This document shows positions 2,630-36,038 of a stretch of 64,000 bases of DNA, piece after piece. Below the pieces are notes generated by a model. It worked only from the letters and a program-made list of their open reading frames with translations, was not told the origin of the DNA and ran no database searches. The DNA comes from Methanorbis furvi (GTDB lineage: Archaea; Halobacteriota; Methanomicrobia; Methanomicrobiales; Methanocorpusculaceae). The position numbers and the translations under genes are program-made. The stretch lies in assembly GCF_032714615.1 (NCBI RefSeq), contig NZ_JAWDKA010000001.1, positions 186,001 to 250,000 on the forward strand, written 5' to 3'. The number at the start of each line of letters is the position of its first letter. Within the stretch, counting starts at the first letter, position 1.

Positions 2630-3211
2630 ATGAAAGATTTTGCCGATGTCATAGCATTTCACGGTCACGTCTGCGGTGGTCTTGCGCTCGGATACAAAGC
2701 CTGTGAACTTGCCGCACAGGAACTTGGCCTCGACTTCTCTGAAGATGAGGAGATTGTGGCACTCACCGAGACAGACTCCTGTACGGTTGATGCAATCCAG
2801 GTACTGTTCGGCTGCACCGCAGGCAAAGGAAATCTCTTCGTCAACAACTGGGGCAAAACCGCATTCTCCTTCTACCGCCGCGACAACAACACCTCGATCC
2901 GGCTTGTCGCCATCCCGGACGCCGTGCCAAAAGACCCGCGAATGAACGAGCTCAGGCCGAAGATTATGAGAGGAGACGCAACCGAAGGCGAAAATGTCGA
3001 GTACCATCATCTGGTCCACGAACATGTGGATCAGATTCTTTCAATCCCTGCAGAAAAACTGTTTGAGATCAAAGAGACAACGCTCCCCCTCCCAAGTGAG
3101 GCATCCATCTACTATAATGTGATGTGTTCGGTCTGCGGTGAACATGTTGCAGAAGGACGGGCAAAACAGGTGGACGGAAAATACGTCTGCATCCCCTGCC
3201 AGAAAAAATAA
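2630..3211 (+). CDS. FmdE-like protein with C-terminal zinc ribbon
   Basis: A 193-residue protein of the FmdE family (named for a protein copurifying with tungsten/molybdenum formylmethanofuran dehydrogenase). The N-terminal FHGHVCGG motif (residues 9-16) and a conserved Cys near residue 52 are family hallmarks. The C-terminus carries a CxxC...CxxC pair (CSVCG and CIPCQ, residues about 167-191) that looks like a treble-clef zinc site. Length fits the family. Function is not established; a role in molybdopterin or formylmethanofuran dehydrogenase metabolism is inferred from the family name only. No formylmethanofuran dehydrogenase subunit is encoded nearby. Confidence 0.85.
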   Translation: MKDFADVIAFHGHVCGGLALGYKACELAAQELGLDFSEDEEIVALTETDSCTVDAIQVLFGCTAGKGNLFVNNWGKTAFSFYRRDNNTSIRLVAIPDAVPKDPRMNELRPKIMRGDATEGENVEYHHLVHEHVDQILSIPAEKLFEIKETTLPLPSEASIYYNVMCSVCGEHVAEGRAKQVDGKYVCIPCQKK

Positions 3212-3234: not shown

Positions 3235-4115
3235 GCCGCCCACGGAAAAACGGAACGCATGCCTTCGGCCTGCTTACCGCTTCGCGGGAACACACGGAGT
3301 TTCACAGAAAAACATCACGGAGCAGACGTGAACAACACGGAATTCATATTCAAATAGGAGTTCCGCGGTGTACTGTTGAGTGGTGAGATCTCGCCTCGTG
3401 AGAAAAAAACCGCCACGGATTCACACGGATTCCAAATTTGCCAATCGTCATTATCTTGCGTTCGGTCGGGACTCCGGCTAATCGCCTGCGTCCTTTTCGA
3501 CCTCACTGGATAATGACTGGCAAATTTTTTTCGGTTTTTTGTTGAGTGGTACATGTGGTTTTGCTTGGAAAAATCAATTACATAATCACACAGATTGCAT
3601 TTTCGGAAAAAAAATGTGCGTGAGTACGATGCAAAAAACATACTCATCATTTCAACAAAAAATCGAAAAATTTGCCAGCTGGTATCCAGTGAGGTCGAAA
3701 AGGACGCAGGCGATTAGCCGGAGTCCCGACCGAGCGCAAGATAACAGCGATTGGCAAATTAAATATCTGTGTGAATCCGTGGCGGTTTTTTTTCACACGA
3801 GACCACGTTCATCAGTTACCTGCTTACAATTTTCAGAAAAAAAGGAACTGAGATCTTTTTGCAATATCACACCGCGTAACTCCTATTAAAAAAAATTCAA
3901 CGAAATTTTTTTCGTGGTATTATATTCGAAATTATTTTTTCTGTACTCATAAAATAGTTTTCAGTTGCCATGTTGAAAAAACTCAACGAAATTATATTTC
4001 CGTGATGTTCACGTCTGCTCCGTGATCTTTTTTTCTGTGAAACTCCGTGTGTTCCCGCGAAGCGGTAAGCAGGCCGAAGGCATGCGTTCCGTTTTTCCGT
4101 GGGCGGAGCTACGAT
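3235..4115. repeat. Family-1 palindromic element, copy 1, interrupted by family-2 element
   Basis: The left arm (3235-3345, starting gccgcccacgg) and right arm (3998-4115, ending gtgggcggagctacgatg) are inverted complements, including the shared core cacggagcagacgtgaac / gttcacgtctgctccgtg. Normally the arms are separated by about 20-110 bases; here about 650 bases intervene, filled by two inverted family-2 hairpins with their own terminal inverted repeats. Both arms carry the optional sub-module gcaggccgaaggcatgcg. It sits between convergent genes. This is best read as a family-1 copy into whose loop a family-2 element was inserted. Confidence 0.85.
3353..3888. repeat. Family-2 element: two inverted hairpin copies with terminal inverted repeats
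   Basis: The ends aataggagttccgcggtgt (3353-3371) and acaccgcgtaactcctatt (3870-3888) are nearly perfect inverted complements. Inside are two head-to-head copies of one conserved hairpin, at 3434-3527 and 3668-3760. Each begins and ends with aaatttgcc / ggcaaattt and encloses ggtcgggactccggctaatc with nested short stems. Short reading frames here repeat the same translated motif only because the DNA is repeated, and they are not credible genes. No transposase is present. Confidence 0.8.
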
Positions 4116-4118
4116 GAG

Positions 4119-4850
4119 TTAAAACAGCGCCCTATCCTTCTTCGCGCCCGCAAGGTTCGCACCGCCAAGCTCCGCATGCCGCAGATCCGCATCGCACAAA
4201 TCCGCCTGCCACAGATCGGCTCCCTCCAGATGCACATGCAAAAGATTCGCACCGCACAACTTCACATGCCGGAGATCCGAACCCTCCAGATGTGCATAGC
4301 ACAAAACAGCCCCGCTCAGATCAAGATTGCGAAGAGACGCCTCCTCCAGATGCGCCCCGTACATCCGAATATCGTTCCCATCCTTGGAAAGCTCCTTCTG
4401 ATACCAGTCATTCCAGAGAGCAATATTTCCTGACTCGGCAGCTGACCGCAGAAGCGAAGCCTGGGTTGCATCATACTTGATCTTTCCTGCCCCGTCATAC
4501 ACCGCAGCATCAGGATTTGCTCCCGACAGCTCTGCTCCGCCAAGGAACGCACGCCACAGATTCGTACCCGAAAGATTTGCATTCGCAAGATTCGCCCGCT
4601 TCAGATACGAATACGAAAGATCCGCACCCTGCAGCTGGGCATACCGCAGATCCGCACCCTCCAGATACCAGTACGCAAGATCTGCACCGGCAAGATGCGC
4701 CCCGTAAGAGTCAGTACTCCGCAGATACTGGGTCTGCACAAGATCTTCCGCATACCAGCCGTTCCACTCCGTAAAGTCCATCGCTTCTGAACAGCGGCGG
4801 AACATCTCGTATTGATCCTGATCAAATCGCGTACGACGTCGTGGCGGCAT
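4119..4850 (-). CDS. Pentapeptide-repeat protein with internal duplication
   Basis: A 243-residue protein made largely of pentapeptide repeats (A-D/N-L-x-x), which fold as a right-handed quadrilateral beta-helix. Two repeat blocks are visible: residues about 50-112 and 164-236. Each block is preceded by a matching segment (EWNGWYAEDL near 29-37 and LWNDWYQKEL near 145-154) followed by YGAHL, so the protein looks like an internal duplication of a linker plus helix unit. No signal peptide is seen. Pentapeptide proteins range from DNA mimics to structural proteins; the role here is unknown. It is flanked on both sides by family-1 palindromes. Confidence 0.85.
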   Translation of the reverse strand: MPPRRRTRFDQDQYEMFRRCSEAMDFTEWNGWYAEDLVQTQYLRSTDSYGAHLAGADLAYWYLEGADLRYAQLQGADLSYSYLKRANLANANLSGTNLWRAFLGGAELSGANPDAAVYDGAGKIKYDATQASLLRSAAESGNIALWNDWYQKELSKDGNDIRMYGAHLEEASLRNLDLSGAVLCYAHLEGSDLRHVKLCGANLLHVHLEGADLWQADLCDADLRHAELGGANLAGAKKDRALF

Positions 4851-4965
4851 TGTGGAAAACCCTCCTTTGATATTCTTATGTATTGGTCTCTATAAGAATC
4901 TGTCTCCGACTCAGGCTTTACCCATAAATTCGTTTGTTGGGGACCGAGGTTCGTCACTAATCGCA

Positions 4966-5144
4966 GCTCCGCCCACAGAAAAGCGGAACACACGGAGCTT
5001 CACGGAAAAAAACATCACGGAGCAGACGAGAACAGCACGGAAATATGATGTTGAATCTGGGTTCCGTGATGTTCACGTCTGCTCCGTGATCTTTGTTCCG
5101 TGAAATTTTCTGTGTTTTCAGATTTTCCGTGGGCGGAGTTGATC
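4966..5144. repeat. Family-1 palindromic element, copy 2
   Basis: A compact, complete copy: left arm gctccgcccacag... with cacggagcagacgagaac, a loop of about 20 bases, and right arm gttcacgtctgctccgtg ending ccgtgggcggagttgatc. It lies between two genes on the minus strand (upstream of the pentapeptide gene). It lacks the gcaggccgaaggcatgcg sub-module. Confidence 0.85.
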
Positions 5145-5152
5145 AAGCCATC

Positions 5153-6385: not shown

Positions 6386-6634
6386 GCCTCCCACGGAAAA
6401 ACAACACGGAACAGACAAGAATAACATGAAATAGGACTTACACGGTGCAATTCTGCGAAGTGATGAGACTGCCATGAATAATTTTTCAACACACCTCCCA
6501 TTATGATTTTTTAAACACGAACCACACGAAAAAACACGAATAATTTAAAATTCCGTGGTGTTCACGTCTGCTCCGTGATGTTTTTCAGTGAGATTTTCAG
6601 TGTATTCCGTTTTTCCGTGGGCGGAGTTACGATA
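6386..6634. repeat. Family-1 palindromic element, copy 3 (degenerate, long loop)
   Basis: The right arm is intact (gtgttcacgtctgctccgtg through ttttccgtgggcggagttacgat). The left arm is shortened to cctcccacggaaaaac followed by cacggaacagacaag. The loop of about 130 bases starts with aataggacttacacggtg, which resembles the terminal repeat of the family-2 element seen at 3353, so the loop may hold a decayed family-2 insertion. Confidence 0.7.
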
Positions 6635-12380: not shown

Positions 12381-12660
12381 GCTCCGCCCACGGAAAATCA
12401 GAACACACGGAAATTTCACAGAAAAACATCACGGAGCAGACGTGAACACCACGGAATTCTAAAACATTTACAACAAAAAAATTTAGCTGGTTTTTTTGAA
12501 AAATTTTCACGGGACATTTTGTGGCATCGCATGATATTTTAAAATAATATTTCCGTGATGTTCACGTCTGCTCCGTGATGTTTTTCTGTGAAATTCCGTG
12601 TGTTCCCGCGAAGCGGTAAGCAGGTCGAAGGCATGCGTCTCGTTTTTCCGTGGGCGGAGC
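12381..12660. repeat. Family-1 palindromic element, copy 6 (long-loop subtype)
   Basis: Both arms are present (gctccgcccacgg...cacggagcagacgtgaac / gttcacgtctgctccgtg...ccgtgggcggagc), with the sub-module gcgaagcggtaagcaggtcg in the right arm. The loop is about 100 bases and starts attctaaaacattta; it is clearly related to the loop of copy 10. The element abuts the birA stop codon and lies between convergent genes. Confidence 0.85.
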
Positions 12661-26680: not shown

Positions 26681-26992
26681 ACGTTCTGCTCCGCCCACGA
26701 CTCTCATGCCCTTGGCCTACTCACTACTTCGTTGCTCCGCCCACGGAAAAACGGAACACACTGAATGCCACAGAAAAAAACATCACGGAGCAGACGTGAA
26801 CAACACGGAAATAAATTATTTAGGACTTACCCAGTGGTGAGTTTCATTGTTTGGAATTTTATCTGTCATTGATTTCGCTTTGAGTAAACACGAAACTTCA
26901 TTTTCAAATTCCGTGATGTTCACGTCTGCTCCGTGATGTTTTTCTGTGAAATTTCCGTGTGTTCCGTTTTTCTGTGGGCGGAGCAGAACGTA
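26681..26992. repeat. Family-1 palindromic element, copy 8 (extended, long loop)
   Basis: The outermost ends acgttctgctccgcccac and gtgggcggagcagaacgt are perfect complements. A duplicated terminal 12-mer gctccgcccacg (26688 and 26733) brackets the sub-module. The loop of about 100 bases begins with taggacttacccagtggtgag, like the family-2 end at 3353-3385. The core cacggagcagacgtgaac / gttcacgtctgctccgtg is intact. Confidence 0.8.
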
Positions 26993-35526: not shown

Positions 35527-35905
35527 TGATCATTGTGATATCATGAAATGATTTAATTGATTCTTTTCTGAAAAATGTAAACGGGTTAGTGGTGAGTGTG
35601 GCATTGTGTGAAAAAACAACCACAGATTCACGCAGATTCCAAATTTGCCAATCGCTGTTATCTTGCGTTCGGTCGGGACTTCGGCTAATCGCCTGCGTCC
35701 TCTTCGACCTCACTGGATAACAGCTGGCAAATTTTTCGGTTTTTTGTTGGAGTGGTATGTGATTTTTCTCAGTGTGTTCACTCACATTTTTTTTCAAAAA
35801 TGCAATCAGTGTGAAACAGTAATTAATTTTTCCAAGTAAAACCACGTACATCACTCATCCTCTTACGTTTTCCAGAAAAAAAATCAACTAAATCTTTTTG
35901 TGAGA
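35527..35905. repeat. Family-2 element, single hairpin copy
   Basis: The central hairpin at 35641-35733 has arms aaatttgccaatcgctgttatc / gataacagctggcaaattt and an inner ggtcgggacttcggctaatc with nested stems. The outer flanks are themselves imperfect inverted complements (ttctgaaaaatgtaaacggg near 35571 against cctcttacgttttccagaa near 35858), giving about 55-base terminal repeats. It directly adjoins family-1 copy 11. It lies between the divergent recQ and VOC genes. Confidence 0.75.
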
Positions 35906-35908
35906 GCA

Positions 35909-36038
35909 CAAAAAACATCACGGAACAGACAAGAACATCACAGAATTCGAAAATAATTTATTTCCGTGATGTTCACGTCTGCTCCGTGATGTTTTTTCTG
36001 TGAAGCTCCGTGTGTTCAGATTTTCCGTGGGCGGAGCA
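35909..36038. repeat. Family-1 palindromic element, copy 11 (left end missing)
   Basis: The right arm is complete (gttcacgtctgctccgtg to ccgtgggcggagc). The left arm starts only at aacatcacggaacagac; the outer left part is replaced by the family-2 element, consistent with insertion or recombination at that point. Confidence 0.8.

Follow-up and report, generated by a model that had tools for sequence, protein, structure and literature searches.

Between an fmdE-type gene (positions 2630-3211, + strand) and a pentapeptide-repeat gene (4119-4850, - strand) of the window (the whole 64 000-nt stretch of DNA analysed here, part of the genome of a methane-producing archaeon with Methanocorpusculum species as its nearest named matches) lies copy 1 of a dispersed palindrome, family 1, whose arms are held apart by an element of a second family, family 2 (Table 1). 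The outer 77 nt of the two arms are 100% complementary (4030-4106 on the right side). The sequence-only reading had placed the arms about 650 bases apart, far above the usual loop, and this agrees with our measurement of ~640 nt between the arms and 671 nt from core to core. Among the 34 family-1 copies with exact arm cores the core-to-core gap has a median of 71 nt and lies between 31 and 170 nt in 30 copies, the exceptions being 415, 491, 671 and 705 nt. An Rfam search over the whole window gave zero matches.

Table 1. Positions in the window of the split family-1 palindrome, the family-2 element within it and related features.
Feature	Position	Strand	Basis or remark
Left arm, family-1 palindrome copy 1	3236-3350	+	115-nt inverted match, 93%, to 12543-12657
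Left target-site copy TTCAAA	3349-3354		5/6 bases equal to right copy
Family-2 MITE, 531 bp, non-coding, TIR-bounded	3355-3885	.	genome copies, ends, ORFs without Pfam match
Left terminal inverted repeat (TIR) TAGGAGTTCCGCGGTGT	3355-3371	+	
Left internal inverted arm of MITE	3403-3529	+	127 nt, 90% complementary to 3666-3792
Right internal inverted arm of MITE	3666-3792	-	
Right TIR, reverse complement of TAGGAGTTACGCGGTGT	3869-3885	-	
Right target-site copy TTAAAA	3886-3891		
Right arm, family-1 palindrome copy 1	3989-4106	-	
Relic MITE end TAGGACTTACACGGTG in loop of family-1 copy 3 (6386-6627)	6432-6447	+	palindrome in G019 has a short uninterrupted loop
Second family-2 copy, truncated, TIRs not detected	35534-35857	-	beside family-1 copy 35893-36037

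The ends of the family-2 element (TAGGAGTTMCGCGGTGT) had been described as near-perfect inverted repeats of 19 bases; the inverted repeats are real, with a length of 17 nt, and the two extra bases belong to the target (AA/TT). The two inverted hairpins of that description are likewise present (Table 1), and the element folds as a single strand with -194.9 kcal/mol (z = -25.8 against shuffles). Its open reading frames gave no Pfam matches. The 17-nt end occurs 60 times in its own genome (≤ 2 mismatches) against 0 occurrences of the same end read backwards, so that these ends are not a product of chance; several congeners carry up to ~50 occurrences (reversed control again 0), a single match was found beyond the genus, in one genome, and a scan of IMG/VR for the ends returned none. 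Matching stretches of family 2 number 56 in the genome, many being both orientations of one palindromic copy, and whole-element copies at unrelated loci share 99%, 92%, 90%, 85% and 78% identity, the closest (L002, on another contig) differing by 2 mismatches and 4 gap columns. Being short, non-coding, bounded by TIRs and dispersed in copies with defined ends, family 2 is a new MITE family of familiar type.

The target duplication that the sequence-only reading had proposed to look for is imperfect at copy 1 itself (TTCAAA against TTAAAA, 5/6), and a clear 6-bp excess emerges over the genus. The 99% copy L002 has an exact TTAGAA on both flanks, and an exact 6-bp duplication is present at 20 of 69 end-pairs drawn from the genus, where swapping flanks predicts 1.6 and 300 shuffles gave 6 at most; the list holds a few nested or overlapping pairings, which should merely dilute the signal. 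As an exact 7-bp match was found in only one of the 69 pairs, we take the length of the duplication to be 6; its consensus over the 20 exact cases is TTNNAA, and in some MITE copies it is 5 bp. If each end is shifted outward by one base, these data give 4 bp in 24/69 pairs; copies with TTTCAG and TTCCCG favour 6. At two loci of this genome (L006 and L149) a MITE is present where the nearest relative, hereafter G019, has an empty site with a single copy of the target.

A candidate source of mobility was detected on contig C4 (L087, 185483-186585), where family-2 ends with 1 and 0 mismatches (TAGGACTTACGCGGTGT / TAGGAGTTACGCGGTGT) flank a transposase gene that takes up the interval between them, the element being 1.1 kb long, as is ordinary for an IS. 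The protein matches Pfam DDE_5 and NCBIfam IS701_2 (NF049921; E 1e-62, 212 bits); the curated threshold of the latter, 250, is meant for a whole protein and lies above the score of the partial L087 frame. With its DDE transposase, its size of 1.1 kb and its short TIRs, L087 resembles the IS701 family (IS701_2 group of NF049921); family 2 differs from that family in having no transposase, in its 6-bp duplication (5 bp in some copies) and in its preference for TTNNAA. The reading frame of L087 is broken in the assembly, and this locus is the sole strong IS701 match found in the genome; because the genome (1.85 Mb) is a draft of 26 contigs that is 95.8% complete, an intact IS701 source could be missing from it. 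Beyond the 17-bp ends no sequence common to L087 and family 2 is evident, and no full-length homologue of the transposase was seen in congeners, G019 giving only fragments. Three elements of other genomes considered as intact parents (L070, L077 and L083, with 1.4-1.5 kb between ends) were rejected, their open reading frames having no recognisable transposase, with parts masked. The nested insertion had been put forward as good evidence that family 2 is or was mobile, and the dispersed copies with the same ends, the 6-bp duplications, the empty sites at L006 and L149 and this putative parent IS all uphold that view.

We consider it very probable that a family-2 MITE, moved in trans by a transposase of the IS701 family (with 6-bp TTNNAA-like duplications), inserted in the loop of copy 1. 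From the sequence evidence at L087, an IS701-type transposase acting in trans is the likely source of this mobility: such a DDE transposase would recognise the 17-bp ends and insert the MITE at AT-rich sites resembling TTNNAA, duplicating 6 bp of the target. Here the MITE would have entered the AT-rich loop of a pre-existing family-1 palindrome in the fmdE/pentapeptide gap, widening the arm spacing from ~100 bp to ~640 bp, so that at this locus the palindrome presumably came first and the MITE second. The nested insertion itself is real, recent and an ordinary type of event. A comparable case is MITEAba12, mobilised by ISAba12, which is 111-114 bp in length and makes 9-bp duplications that are kept in 40% of copies (PMC6382973). 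Both are non-autonomous, share their ends with a coresident IS and have AT-rich duplications (20/69 exact in family 2), whereas family 2, at 531 bp, is the larger of the two, contains long inverted arms in its interior and would depend on a different IS. Our literature search found no description of an IS701-type MITE group in Methanocorpusculum; the present data document such a group, which is abundant, together with its ends and target duplication.

It is unlikely that the MITE is moved by a transposase of some other type, with the IS701 gene of L087 as a passenger. The sole IS701 gene found in the genome is frame-broken, which would suit a passenger. The classical IS701 family makes 4-bp YTAR duplications, shorter than the 6 bp that fit the present data best, and ISAba11 is IS701-related. 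Six base pairs also exceed the 5-bp duplication reported for ISAba11 (PMC7885321). However, the L087 gene occupies the interval between two matching ends, in an element whose 1.1 kb is an ordinary IS size, and inspection of TIR-bounded elements (a subset checked for open reading frames, some of them masked) turned up no other transposase.

The orthologous fmdE/pentapeptide gap of G019 measures about 55-57 bp (reading ...TTTTTTTCGTTAAGAGACTTTGATTAATCGTGGGCGGAGCTATG...), contains no MITE and keeps of family 1 a 12-bp tip alone, CGTGGGCGGAGC. The sequence-only reading had pointed to the orthologous gap in close relatives as the place for an empty-site comparison, naming an orthologous locus devoid of both elements and with a different arm spacing as the sign that they arrived together; because the G019 gap lacks nearly all of both elements, the comparison is uninformative at this locus, neither deciding the matter nor amounting to that sign. 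Nearly everything of the two elements was either deleted from this gap or never present in it, and the retained 12-bp tip suggests loss there, not a clean empty site. M. petauri and M. faecipullorum keep fmdE and have another gene as its downstream neighbour, so that they provide no empty-site comparison. A single composite of 870 bp, made up of arms and MITE and arriving as a unit, would agree with a G019 gap lacking nearly all of both elements and with the identity of the outer 77 nt of the arms, but we judge it very improbable: arms alone and MITE alone occur at many other loci, the composite as such was not encountered again, other nested cases involve different MITEs or loop positions, and the 12-bp tip suggests loss in G019. 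Family-1 copies that lack a MITE are common, as are MITEs away from family 1, and for this reason we treat the two as separate entities.

Two further observations concern this neighbourhood in G019. The adjacent genes (G019:C2:165402-166763) diverge very unequally from those of the window, the pentapeptide protein being 98% identical and FmdE 76%, which suggests recombination or gene replacement between the two. Family-1 copy 2 (window 4914-5147) and its immediate flanks are absent from the orthologous gap of G019, by deletion there or by gain here, and the breakpoints do not match the palindrome ends.

Insertion into family-1 loops was also seen elsewhere, with 6 of the 30 TIR-bounded elements of this genome lying in such loops (L001, L007, L147, L150, L151 and L158), in addition to further relics (L092, L271 and a copy at 26784). 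The element at L147 has an exact TCGTG duplication, and its orthologue in G019 (L223) is likewise occupied and nested; the ends and the duplication are kept, the MITE interior differs and both internal palindrome arms have changed together. At L025 and its G019 counterpart L226 the same site holds TIR-bounded inserts of 332 and 142 bp with quite different interiors, the ends and the duplication again being retained. Rearrangement of palindrome loops evidently acts on these repeats, given such differing interiors at shared sites (L147 against L223, L025 against L226), and both families are long imperfect palindromes, but the idea that family 2 is immobile and merely an expanded or rearranged loop, e.g. 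by replication template switching, is scarcely credible against the transposition signatures of fixed ends, an excess of 6-bp duplications, near-identical dispersed copies and empty sites. Insertion of a mobile MITE accounts for some palindrome arms standing hundreds of bases apart, and long palindromes act repeatedly as MITE landing sites.

A strong preference for hairpin loops was considered and rejected, as 6/30 corresponds to P ~0.003 if loops make up 5% of the target and to 0.07 if they make up 10%. Because this loop share is an estimate, we claim only a modest enrichment, which may reflect the AT-richness of the loops alone. Repetitive extragenic palindromes (REPs) have arms far shorter than those of family 1. 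They are targeted by ISPpu9, ISPpu10, ISPa11 and ISPsy8 (PMC1525189), which family 2 resembles in inserting in dispersed intergenic palindromes and from which it differs in that its preference is partial (6/30). Two family-2 copies, L003 and L006 (G000:C6:97765 and C4:63060), are inserted into another kind of palindromic repeat (GCGAATA...AATCGCCATTGGCGATT) or next to it.

Family 1 is confined to two genomes, this one (145 arm cores on one strand, 146 on the other) and G019 (64 and 59); the remaining genomes are at background. Its copies in the window lie between genes of every relative orientation and are therefore not simply terminators; in G019 some are found at orthologous places in restructured form and others are absent. 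General homogenisation of arms within a copy was rejected, since an arm's own partner ranks 16th of 35 (median) and is hardly closer than the arms of other copies; copy 1 is an exception, its own arms ranking first as partners.

A GxxExxY gene (TIGR04256, E 1e-43) occupies the family-1 loop of 491 nt (L257, G000:C1:183000-184000, ~2 kb to the left of the window), whereas the orthologous place in G019 has different sequence with neither palindrome nor GxxExxY gene. GxxExxY (PF13366/TIGR04256) is a PD-(D/E)XK nuclease-like protein that was hardly mentioned in the literature we searched. A PF13366 search of 41 genomes gave matches in 18, from which 30 loci were retrieved (L277-L306), and 21 of these were testable, with full flanks and a full domain. 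In Methanocorpusculum the gene lies inside a long palindrome at 17 of the 21 testable loci, compared with 0 of 41 control genes: the inverted arms close on both sides of the 17 genes reach local scores of 41-192, against ≤ 20 at 25 fmdE loci and ≤ 17 at 16 loci of the pentapeptide gene; a score of 40 is reached in 1% of random window slots. IS701-type ends around these genes were also considered; a recognisable end lies within 1.5 kb at 3/30 loci, so most GxxExxY genes are not in detectable IS701-bounded elements. The link between gene and palindrome is an association, in which the gene may be either part of the palindrome life cycle or a passenger. We offer only tentatively, and with more doubt than belief, the idea that the dispersed Methanocorpusculum palindromes, family 1 and its analogues, are gene-less versions of a mobile palindromic element that carries GxxExxY in its loop as its own gene, and that IS701-type MITEs land in the same loops. 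That GxxExxY genes lie inside palindromes offers a starting point, open to testing, for work on a protein family that has hardly been studied.

G002, G007, G010, G018 and G023 have GxxExxY genes of another class, which form inverted pairs ~1.4-7 kb apart whose two ends belong to different sub-families; none of the few looked at lies obviously in a palindrome. This genome has one further GxxExxY gene (L303 / L011, G000:C3:91911-92755), 96 bp from a TIR-less copy of the family-2 interior.
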